DNA from: Methylobacterium sp. E-065
Lineage (GTDB): Bacteria > Pseudomonadota > Alphaproteobacteria > Rhizobiales > Beijerinckiaceae
NCBI RefSeq assembly: GCF_022829605.1
Contig: NZ_JAKSYD010000253.1
Location: 124,001-188,000 of the forward strand
Length of the DNA stretch: 64,000 nt
Reading direction: 5' to 3'
Shown: positions 28,787-37,532 of the stretch, in pieces
Layout of the letters: the number at the start of each line of letters is the position of its first letter
Numbering within the stretch: the first letter of the stretch is position 1
Program-made: the position numbers and the translations under genes
The notes under the pieces: generated by a model
The model's input: the letters and a program-made list of their open reading frames with translations, nothing else
Database searches by the model: none
Told to the model about the DNA's origin: nothing

Positions 28787-31378
28787 CTAGCCCGCCGCCG
28801 CCTGACGCGCCGGCATGATGATTTCCACCAGCGTGCCATCCTCCGCCGGAGTCGACAGCTGAAGGCGGCCGCCATTCGCCTCCACCAGGGCGCGGGGCAG
28901 GGCCAGACCCTCCTCGACATCCCGGCCCCGGTCGGCGGCGGACCGCGCGGCGGCCCCCGTATCGCGAACCCGGAGCGCGACGCCGGCCCGCTCGGCCGCA
29001 CCGGTCGACACGATGATCTGGCCGCCGACTGCCGACCGGCGGATTGCGTTCTCGATCACCAGGGCCGCGGCTCGACTTACGGACGGCTCGTCGGCCTCCA
29101 GCTCCGCAAGATCCGACGCAAAGCTCGTGCGCACGACGATGCGGCCGCGGGCCGCCTCGGCCTGGAGCTGCGCCACGCATCCCGCCACGACATCGTTGAG
29201 ATCGAGGGTGCGCGGCTCGAGGTGCAGGGCGCCAGCCTCCACGGCCGCGAGGTCGAGCAGCTTGCCGACGCGTTCGAGCATCGCATCGCCGGACGCCTTG
29301 ATCTCGGCGAGGCAGGCCCGGTAGCGCGCGTCGCCCAGGGAGCCGAAGGGCTCCTTCAGCATCGCGTCGGCGAGCGCGATCATGCCGGTCAGCGGTTCGC
29401 GGAACGCGCGATCAGCGCGCACCAGCGCGAGACCGGTGCCGTTCGAGGCGTCCCGATCCGATGCGCCCGTCGGCGTCTGTCCGCGGAGACGGCTCGCCGG
29501 CTCGACGATGGCGAACCGGTGGCTATCCCCCTCCGCAGCCTTGACGTCGAGACTCACGGGCGTGCCGGAGAGGGTCACGCGACGCGGTCCCTTGACCACG
29601 CCACGTAGGACATCGGCGACGGTCAGCACGCAGTCCCGATCGAACTGAGCGACGAAACTGCCACCCACGATCTCTCGTGGCGCGCAGTCGAACAGGCGGG
29701 CGGCGGCACGATTCACCGACACGATCCGCCCTGCCTGATCGAGGGTCACCACGCCCGTATCGAGCGCGTCCAGCGCGGCCTCGGCGGCGGTCGCCCGCTC
29801 GGCTTGAGCGGTGCGGTCGAGGCGCTCGGCAGCCAGGGCCATGGCGGCATCGGCCTCGTCGATCGGACGCAGGACCAGGCATGCCGCAGCCGCCCCGGCC
29901 CAAAGGCAAGCGCCGCTCAGCATCTCGACCGGCCTGACGTACCCGTCGGCGCCTGTGACGGTGGTCCGTCGCGCCGCCGGATCCGCGTCCGCCTTGCGTT
30001 GTGCCCCTGGAAGTACCGCGCTGAGCCCGCGCCCCGACAGGGCCGCGCTGTCGGCGTCGCCGGTCAGCTCCAGAAGCTTGCGACTCGCCCCGAGGATCAC
30101 GCCGTCCCGATGCACCAGCACCGGAACCGGAAGCCCGGCCAGTAGCTCGGGGAACGCAGCGGCGCGGCCTGCACCGTCCCGCGATTCCACGGCGCCCGCT
30201 TGCGGCCCGGGAAAGGGCATGACGGCGCCGCCTTCCGGCCTCGGCGCGGCTTCCTCCGACGTCGCCTCATCGCCGGCATAGCGTGCCCCGAGGGCCCGGG
30301 CGATCTCGCGGAACGCGGCATGCTCGTCGTTCGAAAGCGCGGTCGCTACGGGTTCCAGCTCACCAGCGGGCGGCGGTTCGGGTTCGCTCGTCACCGCTGC
30401 TGGTTCGGGCAGTACGGACGGGGTTGCTGTCGGTGGGAGCGGCGCGTCCGCGACCGGCTGCGCCCCCGGCAAATCGACCGGCGATGCCTCCGGCAGGTCG
30501 ACCGGCGCCGCCGTGGGTCCGGACCGGAGCAACCCGAAGCCGGCAAAGCCCGAGCCGCTGGCTTCACCCCGGCCGAGCGGTGCACCCGAGAGTTCGACTC
30601 GGCACGGACCGGCGCCGGCATCCAGCACCGCCGGCTCTCCGCGGAAGGTTCGCCGCTCCCGCAGAGCCGCCAAAACCCCGTCGGCGCCCGACATGCGTCC
30701 GGCCGCCGCGAGATCCTGCCACCGTTGCCCGACGAGTCCGGCCAGAAGATCCGGGCCCGTGAATTGGATCACCGTGCCCGAAGCGTCGAGCCGCCACAGA
30801 AACCGATCGTCCCGGACGACGACAGAGGCCGGCTTCGGCGCCGGCGCGCTCTCGGGTTGGCGCTGACGCGCCCGCGGTCCGACGGGAGCCGTGGGAATTA
30901 CCAGGATCGCATCCGTGCCATCGTCGCGGTGCCCACGGGCCAGCCAGCAGAGCACCGGGGGCGCGATGCGGCGGGGATCGAGGCGCAGCCGCGCGAGCCG
31001 GGGCGCATCATCGTTCGGCGCCGTCGACAGGATCTGCCGAAATAATTCCGCGCGACCGGGGCCGGAAAGCGCGTCGGACAGGGCGTGCGCGGCTGGAGAG
31101 GCGTGCAGCATCTGCCCGTCGCCCGCATCGACAACGAGATGGATCGGGTTCGGCATGGCCAGGGCCGCCGACAGACTTGGCAGCCGCCGCCAGGCCGCAA
31201 AAGCGGTGGTGAGACCGAGCCCACGCTCCGGATTGGCCGGTGTCAGTGTCGTCTCCAAAGCCCGCGACCTCGAACCCCTACGCGATCCGACGCTCCTCCC
31301 GGTGAGAAACGACGACGACCGACGCACTTTTGTAAACGCTGTGTCGCCGCGGCGCTTAATCTTCGCAACGACCGTCAT
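28787..31378 (-). CDS. PAS-domain sensor-kinase-like protein with degenerate kinase core
   Basis: About 863 residues. The N-terminal 450 residues are low complexity and Pro/Ala rich. Two PAS-like domains follow (VILGASRKLLELTGDADSAA and VVTLDQAGRIVSVNRAAARL), then a DHp-like helix and an HATPase-like domain. In the DHp region RADRAFREPLTG the phospho-accepting histidine position is arginine. The N-box (ALVIENAIRRS) is kept, but the G1 box reads RVRDTGAA and the G2 box is reduced to EEGLALPRALVEANGG. It is therefore probably a signalling pseudokinase (inference). The start is ATG 31378, or 31423 in frame. It is divergent from the phasin gene and upstream of acs on the same strand (273 bp). Confidence 0.8.
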   Translation of the reverse strand: MTVVAKIKRRGDTAFTKVRRSSSFLTGRSVGSRRGSRSRALETTLTPANPERGLGLTTAFAAWRRLPSLSAALAMPNPIHLVVDAGDGQMLHASPAAHALSDALSGPGRAELFRQILSTAPNDDAPRLARLRLDPRRIAPPVLCWLARGHRDDGTDAILVIPTAPVGPRARQRQPESAPAPKPASVVVRDDRFLWRLDASGTVIQFTGPDLLAGLVGQRWQDLAAAGRMSGADGVLAALRERRTFRGEPAVLDAGAGPCRVELSGAPLGRGEASGSGFAGFGLLRSGPTAAPVDLPEASPVDLPGAQPVADAPLPPTATPSVLPEPAAVTSEPEPPPAGELEPVATALSNDEHAAFREIARALGARYAGDEATSEEAAPRPEGGAVMPFPGPQAGAVESRDGAGRAAAFPELLAGLPVPVLVHRDGVILGASRKLLELTGDADSAALSGRGLSAVLPGAQRKADADPAARRTTVTGADGYVRPVEMLSGACLWAGAAAACLVLRPIDEADAAMALAAERLDRTAQAERATAAEAALDALDTGVVTLDQAGRIVSVNRAAARLFDCAPREIVGGSFVAQFDRDCVLTVADVLRGVVKGPRRVTLSGTPVSLDVKAAEGDSHRFAIVEPASRLRGQTPTGASDRDASNGTGLALVRADRAFREPLTGMIALADAMLKEPFGSLGDARYRACLAEIKASGDAMLERVGKLLDLAAVEAGALHLEPRTLDLNDVVAGCVAQLQAEAARGRIVVRTSFASDLAELEADEPSVSRAAALVIENAIRRSAVGGQIIVSTGAAERAGVALRVRDTGAAARSAADRGRDVEEGLALPRALVEANGGRLQLSTPAEDGTLVEIIMPARQAAAG

Positions 31379-31493
31379 ACGTTTACGTTGTATCAACCTT
31401 AACGCCGATGGCGTGGCTGGCATATGGCGGCGAATCGGTTATTGTGCAGCGCACAACAAGCCATCCACAGGCTGACACGAGAGGAGACGACAC

Positions 31494-34207: not shown

Positions 34208-35209
34208 TCAACGCGCCGGGCTGGGGGCGGACCCTTGATGCAGTATCTGGTCTGTCGTGATTGGAGTTGCCGCAGTCCCGGTCAGTTCCACGACGTCGAC
34301 CTCGACACGCATACCCAGATCGTCACTGGCCAGGCCGAAGAAGGAGCCGTGCAGCGGCACCGCCTGCGCGGGATCCCGGGTCACTGCTACGCGAATCAGG
34401 TCGCGGTTTCCGACGATCCCGTTGGTCGGGTCGAACTCGACCCAGCCGGCGCCCGGAAGATAGACTTGCAGCCACGCATGGGTTGAGCCGCCCCCGACAT
34501 GGCGCGCGCGGTCATTGCGGGGATTGTAGAGGTATCCGGACACGAACCGGGCTGCCATCCCGAGCGCGCGCACCGCTTCCATCATCAGCACGGCGAAGTC
34601 CCGGCACGAGCCACGCCGGCCGCGCAGGGTCGTGAGCGGGTCCTGCACGCCCTTTTCGCTACGGGCGAGATAAGTGAAGTTTGCCCGGACGCCGCGGGTC
34701 ATGGCGGCCAACAACTCCTGCGTGGGAATGCGCCCGTTTGCCGGCAGGAAGCTGCGTGCCCAGGCATCCACCTCATGCTTCGGGTCGGGCCATTGCCGTT
34801 CGATGGAGCGGGCAAGGTCCGGCATGTCCTCGGCCCCGTACCCGAACGGGAAATGGGTCGCGTGCGGGGCCAGCGGGAAGACCGGCGCATGCTCAGGCGT
34901 GTGCTCGAGGGTGATGCCGCAGGCGAAGGTGAGCGTTTCCGCGCGTATGTCGAAGGTGGCCACCGCCACGCAGTTGCCGAACACGTCGAACAGCCAGCGC
35001 AGCGTTGCCGGTTCCGGTGCGATATCGAGGGTCGCCTCGATCAACCGCTGATCGTAGCTGTCGCGTGGCCGGAACATGATCCGGTGCTCGCCGAACGAGA
35101 CCGGGCGCCTGTACCGATAAGTCGTTCGGTGTTGGACGGATAGGATCGGCAAAGCGGCTCTCTTCCGGCGCGCGCCGTTGCGAACTCCATCAACGCGCGA
35201 ACGTGTCAT
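34208..35209 (-). CDS. transglutaminase-like cysteine protease family protein (2)
   Basis: 333 residues. The N-terminal Bact_transglu_N domain (LSVQHRTTYRYRRPVSFGEH, residues ~20-95) precedes the transglutaminase core. The triad is complete: Cys in RRGSCRDFAVLMMEA, His in GGSTHAWLQVYLPGAGW, Asp in WVEFDPTNG. No signal peptide is evident, so it is probably cytoplasmic. The start is ATG 35209, although the frame is open to 35365. It precedes the first homologue by 65 bp. Pairs of such genes are common in Rhizobiales; substrates are unknown. Confidence 0.88.
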   Translation of the reverse strand: MTRSRVDGVRNGARRKRAALPILSVQHRTTYRYRRPVSFGEHRIMFRPRDSYDQRLIEATLDIAPEPATLRWLFDVFGNCVAVATFDIRAETLTFACGITLEHTPEHAPVFPLAPHATHFPFGYGAEDMPDLARSIERQWPDPKHEVDAWARSFLPANGRIPTQELLAAMTRGVRANFTYLARSEKGVQDPLTTLRGRRGSCRDFAVLMMEAVRALGMAARFVSGYLYNPRNDRARHVGGGSTHAWLQVYLPGAGWVEFDPTNGIVGNRDLIRVAVTRDPAQAVPLHGSFFGLASDDLGMRVEVDVVELTGTAATPITTDQILHQGSAPSPAR

Positions 35210-35295
35210 GCAAGGGCCGGGCCCCGCAGGTTCGCGGGGCGGGCTCGTTCGACGGGAGCCGCACCGCGGCCGGCCAACGACCGCGGGCCGCAGCG

Positions 35296-35892
35296 TCAGA
35301 CAACAGGAGGCGCAGGCTCGGCAGCCGCGCGCTCCGCCTCGACCAGCACGTCGAGCGGACGCCACGGCTTGGAAATGAACACGGCCTCCTGCGGGAGGTC
35401 GGGACGGGGCAAGTCGTGGCCGGAGGTCACCACCAGCCGCGCCCGGGGCCAGAGGGTCGCCACAGCCCGCGCAAGTTGCAAACCGTCCATCTGGCCGGCC
35501 AGCCGGATATCGGCGAAGACCAGGGCCACCTCTCCGCCGCGCGCCTGCAGTACCAACAGTGCGGCCTCAGCACTGTCGCAGCCGATCACGTCGAGCTCGG
35601 TCTCCTCGAGCAGCGTCTCGGCCAGCGCACGGATCTGGGGATCGTCTTCGACGACAAGCGCAAGCCGCGCATGCACGGCAGCCGTCGCGACGGCGCCCGC
35701 CTCCGGTCGCGCGGGCTCTTCGGTCTCGGTCTGACGGACGCGGCGAACCAGTGCGGCGAGGTGCTCGGGCACGCCCTCGGACACGAGGTCGTCGTAGAAC
35801 GACGCGAGGGTCCGGCCGATCTGATCGAGCGGAATACCCGGTGTGAGCGTATCGGTGAGCGGCAGGGGTGCGCTCGTCTGGTGCTTCCTCAA
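35296..35892 (-). CDS. NepR-like anti-sigma segment fused to a receiver domain
   Basis: 198 residues. Residues ~22-51 (PLDQIGRTLASFYDDLVSEG, then VPEHLAALVRRV) match the NepR pattern, the EcfG anti-sigma factor of the alphaproteobacterial general stress response. After a linker, residues ~76-190 form a receiver domain with acid pair D83/D84, phospho-acceptor D128 (VFADIR), T156/S157 and K175 (ISKPW). The layout suggests that phosphorylation changes how the NepR segment binds sigma or PhyR (inference). The TTG start at 35892 follows GGGGGGAG. Neither phyR nor ecfG is adjacent. It is annotated by motif only; the NepR match needs a profile search. Confidence 0.8.
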   Translation of the reverse strand: MRKHQTSAPLPLTDTLTPGIPLDQIGRTLASFYDDLVSEGVPEHLAALVRRVRQTETEEPARPEAGAVATAAVHARLALVVEDDPQIRALAETLLEETELDVIGCDSAEAALLVLQARGGEVALVFADIRLAGQMDGLQLARAVATLWPRARLVVTSGHDLPRPDLPQEAVFISKPWRPLDVLVEAERAAAEPAPPVV

Positions 35893-36008
35893 GGACTCCC
35901 CCCGAAGTCTTCACGCGCAGGACGAAAGCGCGGCGCGCAAGGAAGAAAGTCGGCAATCCGCCGGTGGTTGCGCGCCGATGTGGAATCTGGCGCTGGCTCG
36001 CCGACCCG

Positions 36009-37175
36009 TTACTGGGTGGCGGTCTCCGCATCCGCGTACGCCATGACACCCGAGACGGCGCGCACGTTTTGGTAACGCGAACCGCGGCTGCTCATCATCG
36101 TCTCGAACTTCTCGTGGACCTGGGCCACCGAGAGGCTCAACGGCTTGCGGTGCCGGCCCCGGCCGATGAAGCGGCCGGCCGCGAAGAAGATCGAGCGGTT
36201 GGCCCTGGCCGGACCGGGGAGGAGCGCGGCCGCTGCGGCGGCGGGCTTGTTGACCACGTTGGCCAGGAACTCCTCGGCGTCGTCCGGACCGAGGAAGTGG
36301 GCGAGATAGACTTCACCGAGGGTCAGTTCGCGCCCGATGCGGAGCGCGATGCGGGCCGCGTCGCGCTTGAGCATCTCGCCGGCCATCAGCGCCGAGAGGT
36401 AGGGGTCGCGGCGGAGTTCGAGCACCCGGGCCCGTTCGGCCGGATCGCTGATAACGGGCCGGTCGTTGCCGTCGGCCGTGATCAGCGCGGCCTCCTTCGC
36501 CATCCCGTACTTGGTGCCGAAGTCGCGGACCACGCCGAGCCACGTGCGCTCGATGAATTGGTAGAGGCCGGTCGCCGAGGAGGTCTTGGCCTGGACCGCG
36601 GTGACGAAGCTCGATTCCTTGTCGGCCACCGCCATGAGCAGGACCGGATCGGTCTGGACCGCCTGGGCGGCGCGCACGATCGTCTGCACGAGGTGGCGCC
36701 GGATCTTCATCGGGCCGAATTCGAGAATGTCGTTCGGGTCGCCCGCCGCGCTCTCGGAGAGCAGGAAGTCGTAGGAGACACGATCGACCGTGTTGGAGCC
36801 GATCTCGGTGTCGAGGTCATGCACGGCGGCGAAGCTCGAAGAGGCCCGCAGCGGCGTCCGCTCCAGCTCGTCCTCCAGCGCAACCGTGTGGATGCGCGGG
36901 CGGGGCATCGGGATCTCGGTGGCGGCTTCCGCGACCGACACGGCCGGTGATAGGCCCACCTTGCCGAGGTCGATACCCGACCCGATCAGGGCGGCGCTGA
37001 GACCGCCGGCGATCAGCGTCACGGTCATCAGCGACCGGACCAGGGCGGGAGCGCTGCCATGGGCGCGGCCGAGCATCGGCTGCGCGGCGATCACGTCGGC
37101 ACGGCGCGTGCCGAAATGCCCGGCGCCAGACTTGCCTGTGATGGCCTTCGACGTTCCGACCGTGCGGCCCTGCAT
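36009..37175 (-). CDS. lytic transglycosylase (SLT domain)
   Basis: 388 residues. It cleaves peptidoglycan between MurNAc and GlcNAc. An N-terminal membrane anchor (ALVRSLMTVTLIAGGLSAAL, ~44-68) and a linker precede the SLT domain (~170-330). The catalytic glutamate is in VADKESSFVTAVQAKTSS, followed by the family GLYQFIERTW. The C-terminal tail is basic and has no recognised domain. I chose ATG 37175 (MQGRTVGTSKA); the frame continues to 37418. It is 116 bp upstream of the NepR-receiver gene and divergent from alaS. Confidence 0.85.
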   Translation of the reverse strand: MQGRTVGTSKAITGKSGAGHFGTRRADVIAAQPMLGRAHGSAPALVRSLMTVTLIAGGLSAALIGSGIDLGKVGLSPAVSVAEAATEIPMPRPRIHTVALEDELERTPLRASSSFAAVHDLDTEIGSNTVDRVSYDFLLSESAAGDPNDILEFGPMKIRRHLVQTIVRAAQAVQTDPVLLMAVADKESSFVTAVQAKTSSATGLYQFIERTWLGVVRDFGTKYGMAKEAALITADGNDRPVISDPAERARVLELRRDPYLSALMAGEMLKRDAARIALRIGRELTLGEVYLAHFLGPDDAEEFLANVVNKPAAAAAALLPGPARANRSIFFAAGRFIGRGRHRKPLSLSVAQVHEKFETMMSSRGSRYQNVRAVSGVMAYADAETATQ

Positions 37176-37532
37176 CGTTGATCCGATTCCCCGCGCCGTT
37201 GACGGCGCCACGGGTTCATCATCGCTTGACAGATGTGGCAACAACACGGCCGCGCTTGTGGCGGAGCTGGGGCTAATCGCGGTGTTTTCGCGGCCGATAC
37301 CTGTAAGCCACAGGTTCAGACCACATTTCCGGGCGCCGTTGCGGGGAAGGCGCAATTTTTGTCGAGCGATGCCACGCCGGAAGCGGCGAATCGCCAGGGA
37401 GCAGGGAACGGCAAGCACTTAGGCCGGGCACCGATTGCAACCCGGTCCGGAACGGCTCTAAGAGGGCGCCATGCGGATGCCGCTCGAAGGTGAGCGGTGC
37501 CCGATCCCGTGTTCCTGCCAGAGCTAGCCTTG

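Follow-up and report, generated by a model that had tools for sequence, protein, structure and literature searches.

According to the parts of the literature on the alphaproteobacterial general stress response (GSR) that treat its partner switch, NepR-type segments act as anti-sigma factors of EcfG in model systems (PMC12148442, PMC8103513), and the sigma-like domain of PhyR pulls NepR off EcfG once the receiver of PhyR is phosphorylated (PMC5898713, PMC5964349, PMC12148442). The phosphorylation of PhyR is, in turn, sped up by NepR, as described in sections of PMC5898713 and PMC5964349. The window analyzed here, a stretch of 64,000 nucleotides from Methylobacterium sp. E-065, contains a gene whose product carries a NepR-like segment and a receiver in a single chain (Pfam) and, hence, is not a free-standing NepR. 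This raises the question of which partner such a chain would meet and what its receiver would contribute. In sections of PMC4814048, the role of the extra NepR-like proteins of Methylobacterium and the kinase route to PhyR are both posed as questions.

Architecture of the fusion protein

In the fusion protein, a NepR-like helix pair at the N terminus is connected by a free linker to a receiver at the C terminus; both domains are under purifying selection and conserved across the genus. The coordinates of its parts and neighbors are given in Table 1. The stretch GGGGGGAG lies directly 5' of the TTG start.

Table 1. Features of the fusion locus, with positions in the window and residue numbers of the fusion protein
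Feature	Position	Strand	Basis or remark
Gene of the NepR-receiver fusion (198 aa), from the TTG start at 35892 to the stop at 35296	35296..35892	-	ORF read-out
NepR-like segment, residues 23-55; predicted helices 22-38 and 43-57	35728..35826	-	Pfam PF18557, AlphaFold2
Fast-evolving linker, residues 56-76	35665..35727	-	Mean commonest-residue frequency 0.38, dN/dS 1.0
Receiver domain, residues 77-191	35320..35664	-	Pfam Response_reg, AlphaFold2
D128 codon, expected phospho-acceptor	35509..35511	-	D in 46/46 other rows
K175 codon, expected receiver switch lysine	35368..35370	-	K in 46/46 other rows
SLT-domain transglycosylase ORF (slt), conserved upstream neighbor	36009..37418	-	Pfam SLT
Transglutaminase-like ORF, downstream neighbor	34208..35365	-	Pfam Bact_transglu_N and Transglut_core; in 50/59 loci
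Promoter-like footprint GCAAC-N17-CTTT, located between slt and the fusion gene	35946..35971	-	Alignment of upstream regions

The NepR profile of Pfam (PF18557) matches residues 23-55 with an E value of 5e-6 and 26.5 bits, barely above the curated cut-off of 25.7, and Response_reg (PF00072) matches residues 79-160 with an E value of 1.2e-10 and 42 bits. The initial annotation had read a NepR pattern at residues 22-51 and a receiver with intact D83/D84, D128, and K175, fused in one chain, and had proposed a search with both profiles as a check. Both profiles match, NepR significantly within the span of residues 15-55, and the receiver residues are as described. Since this architecture is confirmed and conserved, the premise of that annotation was right. 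With an independent NepR profile, for which nine NepR sequences from outside the fusion family were used, the protein scores 12.0 bits. Among 20,000 shuffles of the N terminus, the highest score is 8.7 bits, so that 0/20,000 attain the observed one. When the 39-residue segment is compared on its own with the PDB by phmmer, three NepR chains come out on top with E values of 0.19-0.39, which are not significant. Among 47 aligned homologues, a selection out of 120 listed plus the window's own protein, PF18557 is matched in 38 and Response_reg in 47 (E <= 1e-3), leaving 9/47 homologues without a PF18557 match at 1e-3.

In the AlphaFold2 model, the receiver is well predicted, with blocks mostly at pLDDT 78-93. 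The helices of the NepR segment are of low confidence (pLDDT about 50-61), the linker is loose, and the model (pTM 0.58) does not place the NepR helices confidently against the receiver. In a fold search, this model retrieved receivers, NtrX at the top, and no NepR-related entry. The receiver is best matched by other groups, namely NtrX, DctD, HupR, and CpdR-like receivers.

Within the NepR-like segment, the pattern Ile-Gly-x2-Leu...Tyr-Asp...Pro...Leu-x2-Leu is retained in 46/46 other rows. Two positions depart from ordinary NepR, and both do so in 46/46 other rows: Ala30 stands in place of the Arg that follows Leu29, and Gly40 in place of the Pro that follows Glu39. Seven of the nine NepR matches in the window's genome carry Leu-Arg. 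Because Arg30 and Pro40 are replaced by Ala and Gly, the canonical contact set of NepR is altered, and judged from these residues the partner could have changed as well.

Conservation, neighborhood, and upstream region

Some match at E <= 1e-30 is present in 111/111 genomes searched of the window's genus. The full-length fusion (E <= 4.5e-59, query start 1-14) is found in 90 of them, leaving 21 without it. With the version of genome G188 as query, 14 of these 21 were found to contain a diverged orthologue. In the remaining seven (G108, G223, G228, G242, G243, G264, and G269), these two queries gave neither the full-length fusion nor an orthologue of the diverged clade; in four of them, matches run from residue 22-25 onward with 45-48% identity, and the match inspected, that of G108, sits at a different locus and contains a weak NepR match of 15.0 bits. 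The named homologues among the matches listed belong to Methylobacterium and Methylorubrum, including a named orthologue of Methylorubrum populi (P0180).

The neighbors of the fusion gene are slt, transglutaminase-like, and ykuD genes. The transglycosylase gene adjoins it in 59/59 loci checked (some species being represented twice), as well as in 13/14 loci of the diverged clade and 6/6 loci of the M. populi-like group. The listed GTG start of the transglutaminase-like ORF overlaps the fusion gene; its true start probably lies further in. By neighborhood, no kinase, phyR, ecfG, or phosphotransferase gene is located beside the Methylobacterium fusion gene. That neither phyR nor ecfG is adjacent had been stated in the initial annotation and holds: the sole match above the PhyR cut-off is located on another contig (G000:C112) beside the canonical nepR.

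The rows of the first conservation counts and of the dN/dS analysis were chosen by a motif with seven fixed NepR positions; motif-failing orthologues are, thus, absent from these counts, from the dN/dS set, and from the promoter alignment. In a repeat free of this bias, conservation was determined on 46 other rows picked by overall similarity instead of by motif, and dN/dS with the seven codons removed. The mean frequency of the commonest residue in the 46 other rows is 0.91 for the NepR-like segment, 0.38 for the linker, and 0.89 for the receiver. The dN/dS ratio amounts to 0.105 for the NepR-like segment (0.150 without the seven selection codons), 0.163 for the receiver, and 1.006 for the linker (537 of 861 pairs). 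D83, D128, T156, and K175 are present in 46/46 other rows, and residue 84 is D in 57%. The conservation and low dN/dS of the NepR-like segment imply that it is kept for a reason; judged by its presence in 90/111 genomes and by the transglycosylase gene alongside it in 59/59 loci, the fusion is old and under selection.

A sister clade of 14 genomes (L123-L136) departs from this pattern in the receiver. Its NepR-like segment is kept (mean frequency 0.90), and so is the outline of the receiver. Herein, 14/14 members have D128 replaced by Gly, D84 by Val, and T156 by Ala or Val, and K175-Pro-Trp deleted. The orthologue of G188 scores 18.7 bits for NepR, which is under the cut-off, and its receiver is without a Pfam match; the tblastn matches of G212 and G298 contain one in-frame stop each, located before the NepR segment. 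Because the phosphorylation residues are gone and the NepR segment is kept, phosphorylation would be unneeded for the function that remains in this clade. From its sequence, the dead receiver argues against phosphorylation being essential. As the NepR score dropped too, decay of the whole protein in this clade is possible.

The promoter-like footprint upstream of the gene is a feature of the alignment. GCAAC-N17-C is found in 57/59 distinct upstream regions, with CTTT in 36, CGTT in 12, CTTC in 6, and CATT in 3, and column conservation is 0.99 for GCAAC, 0.64 for the spacer, and 0.89 for the CGACTTT block. Patterns of the GCAAC-N17-C type occur twice per 128,000 window positions. Matches to a looser GCAAC pattern lie within chance (5 in 22 upstream stretches of 2 kb vs 11 in the 128 kb of window strands); hence, the case for the footprint is carried solely by the upstream alignment. 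Across the genome, GCAAC-N17-CTTT is not enriched, with 24 matches vs 34 for the reversed control, and the footprint is missing upstream in 14/14 genomes of the sister clade. The M. extorquens consensus is given as GAAC-N16,17-C/GGTT in the promoter passages of PMC4814048. This classical EcfG promoter was looked for upstream of the fusion gene and rejected, occurring in 0/22 regions, and in 0/6 vs 6/6 for the canonical nepR. For GSR promoters of Sphingopyxis granuli, sections of PMC7083833 describe GCAAC as the second commonest -35 box, AAC as nearly invariant, and the -10 box as flexible; those sections do not list CTTT as a -10 box. GCAAC-N17-C(T/G)TT is regarded as a candidate ECF-type promoter on the basis of its sequence.

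Unfused relatives of the two domains are found in other genera. G036 belongs to another genus in the same family; in it, a nepR gene that scores 32.9 bits with Pfam stops 30 bp ahead of a gene for a receiver from the fusion's receiver family. G170, of genus g32, contains the solo receiver that is closest to that of the fusion (60% identity); ahead of it lies a 71-aa ORF that runs at its end into the receiver start and scores 17.4 bits for NepR, below the cut-off. In 4/6 g32 genomes (G032, G099, G157, and G183), a NepR-like gene lies convergently about 0.5 kb from the receiver gene and is backed by Pfam in G032 only (41.2 bits). Around the receiver of G122 and the second receiver of G170 (L119), a NepR-like ORF was not found. 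A hybrid HisKA kinase, not an HWE kinase, is located close to one g32 receiver, and in two g41 genomes the fusion is present in a weaker form (one with a Pfam E value of 0.02). In the receiver tree, ten fused Methylobacterium rows cluster (97/96), and several inner branches are weak. Since receivers near a separate NepR gene are not adjacent to the fused rows, the tree shows no single origin of the NepR-receiver association. A solo receiver of the same family (L083, G000:C67:75286-75684, plus strand) is 52% identical to the receiver of the fusion and lies on the same contig about 84 kb from the fusion gene.

Possible role in the partner switch

The genome of the window contains one phyR, located beside nepR, at least two EcfG-type sigma factors, and 37 HWE kinase matches. 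Within a few kilobases of two short NepR-like ORFs (L003 and L007, on G000:C194 and G000:C221), the respective contigs contain HWE kinase matches. A further gene, L082:4011-7436 (minus strand) on G000:C181, encodes a 1142-aa hybrid kinase with the order PAS-HisKA-HATPase-receiver-receiver and a NepR-like tail at its end (22.0 bits, under the cut-off of 25.7); the tail may continue from the last receiver helix, and one of this kind is found in 17/30 related loci. In the window itself, a PAS protein at 28787-31423 (minus strand) scores 21.6 bits for HisKA and 21.8 bits for HATPase, below the Pfam cut-offs, and may be a degenerate kinase.

For M. extorquens, the sections of PMC4814048 on NepR homologues report that two of three pull down PhyR and that 0/3 bind any EcfG in a two-hybrid assay, and its authors propose a damping role for them. 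With two of these homologues binding PhyR and none an EcfG, the combination of a NepR-like segment with a receiver fits a phosphorylation-tuned competitor for PhyR. The comparative evidence, that is, the conserved NepR core and the receiver and NepR gene neighbors in two genomes of other genera, favors a role in the PhyR/NepR/EcfG switch. The reading tentatively preferred here is a GSR partner-switch protein with a PhyR-like layout, in which the NepR-like segment would most likely bind PhyR and the receiver would tune this binding. In a first step, the NepR-like segment would bind a surface of the sigma type; the best candidate is the sigma-like domain of PhyR, with an EcfG as the less probable one. 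As judged from the sequence, binding of either form is rather probable, and PhyR is the likelier main target of the two. Given this binding, phosphorylation of D128 by a histidine kinase would, with reasonable likelihood, change how freely the segment binds. The net effect would be a competition with NepR for PhyR that damps the GSR or sets its threshold. Certainty declines from the first step to the third, and we infer the contacts with PhyR, EcfG, and a kinase. Several observations speak against this reading: the marginal Pfam score, the 9/47 unmatched homologues, the altered Arg30 and Pro40, the missing classical EcfG promoter, the unenriched footprint, the lack of an adjacent kinase, phyR, or ecfG, the dead receiver of the sister clade, and the lack of confident docking in the AlphaFold2 model.

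The initial annotation had conjectured two mechanisms, a phosphorylation-gated anti-sigma factor and a sink for PhyR. In a reading of the former kind, the segment would bind an EcfG-type sigma factor directly, and its own receiver, once phosphorylated, would either undo or strengthen this contact, bypassing PhyR. The binding of EcfG by NepR-type segments in model systems, described in parts of PMC12148442 and PMC8103513, is in line with this, as is the presence of at least two EcfG-type sigma factors in the genome; moreover, most EcfGs of M. extorquens are without a known NepR in the account given in sections of PMC4814048. However, as none of the three M. extorquens homologues bound an EcfG in the two-hybrid assay reported there, as the changes of Arg30 to Ala and Pro40 to Gly are conserved, and as no ecfG gene is adjacent, we consider a direct anti-sigma role unlikely.

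It is also improbable that the helix pair is a repurposed relic of NepR that no longer meets PhyR or EcfG and instead serves dimerization or docking to another partner, perhaps linked to the cell-wall genes alongside. The departures from the NepR consensus would fit such a relic, as would the constant neighbors, which are transglycosylase and transglutaminase-like genes and not GSR genes, and the sister clade, where decay has affected the receiver as well as the NepR score (18.7 bits). Yet the typical NepR pattern is kept in 46/46 other rows, and elsewhere related receivers come with separate NepR-like genes.

There is little to commend a PhyR-tethered phosphate carrier or sink, in which the segment would anchor the receiver to PhyR, or would prime PhyR, and the receiver would swap phosphate with GSR kinases or a phosphotransferase in the manner of SdrG or MrrA. 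Single-domain receivers of the GSR do exchange phosphate, as described in parts of PMC5898713 for SdrG and of PMC5964349 for MrrA and the sink LovR, and the genomes with the fusion also contain solo receivers from its receiver family (G000:C67:75286-75684); against this stand the 14 genomes that still keep the NepR segment with an unphosphorylatable receiver and the lack of a linked phosphotransferase gene. A chance match or gene-calling artefact, to which the score near the Pfam cut-off and the TTG start might point, is highly improbable, being contradicted by the 0/20,000 shuffles, the purifying selection, and the presence in 90/111 genomes.

For the PhyR-directed partner-switch protein, the clade of 14 genomes is a natural experiment that separates the role of the NepR part from the contribution of phosphorylation and supplies proteins for comparison. 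By uniting a NepR-like segment and a receiver, a single chain provides a direct physical connection of NepR-like proteins to stress-kinase input, and the gene is found in most of the genus. The fusion would, thus, point to an extra control point in the bacterial stress response.

Comparison with known systems

Databases pair NepR and receiver automatically already: one homologue is labelled NepR family anti-sigma factor in UniRef, and precomputed Pfam annotation pairs both domains. A description of a NepR-receiver fusion was not recognised among the listings and passages of the literature searched, chiefly main texts of open-access papers. Among the extra NepR-like proteins of the same genus are the M. 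extorquens AM1 NepR homologues META1p1275, META1p2700, and META2p0735 (PMC4814048), which may or may not include an orthologue of the fusion; the word 'receiver' is absent from the text of that paper.

Like NepR (PF18557), the fusion protein contains a two-helix core, at residues 23-55, that scores above the Pfam cut-off. It differs from NepR by the attached receiver, by Ala30 and Gly40, and by having neither a phyR or ecfG neighbor nor a classical EcfG promoter. An N-terminal NepR-like extension on EcfG was previously reported for Methylobacteriaceae in sections of PMC4814048, so that in the same genus a NepR-like segment is likewise joined to a GSR protein; there, however, it is joined to a sigma factor, whereas the fusion protein contains a receiver. 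Two EcfG-type sigma factors with such an extension were also observed here (L004 on G000:C99 and L009 on G000:C76).

SdrG and MrrA resemble the fusion in being small receivers without a DNA-binding output that are possibly linked to the GSR; for such GSR single-domain regulators, parts of PMC5898713 use the family name FAT GUY. In contrast to them, the fusion is not single-domain, the NepR-like segment is conserved in its chain, and its receiver best matches other groups.

With PhyR, the fusion shares the order of a partner-switch module first and a C-terminal receiver. The PhyR model matches the fusion protein partially, over profile positions 103-250 of 258 with 32.3 bits against a cut-off of 240, and Pfam finds no sigma domain in it. 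Where PhyR has its sigma-like domain, the fusion bears a NepR-like segment, that is, the opposite partner. One may, hence, speculate about an inverse PhyR, namely, a response regulator with a NepR-mimic output, in which a kinase input other than that of PhyR would, by phosphorylation, control the amount of PhyR (or EcfG) that is sequestered. If this rather doubtful proposal were right, the partner switch would possess a second arm under receiver control, which would exist nearly genus-wide and would have become a fixed, phosphorylation-independent brake in one clade by decay of the receiver.
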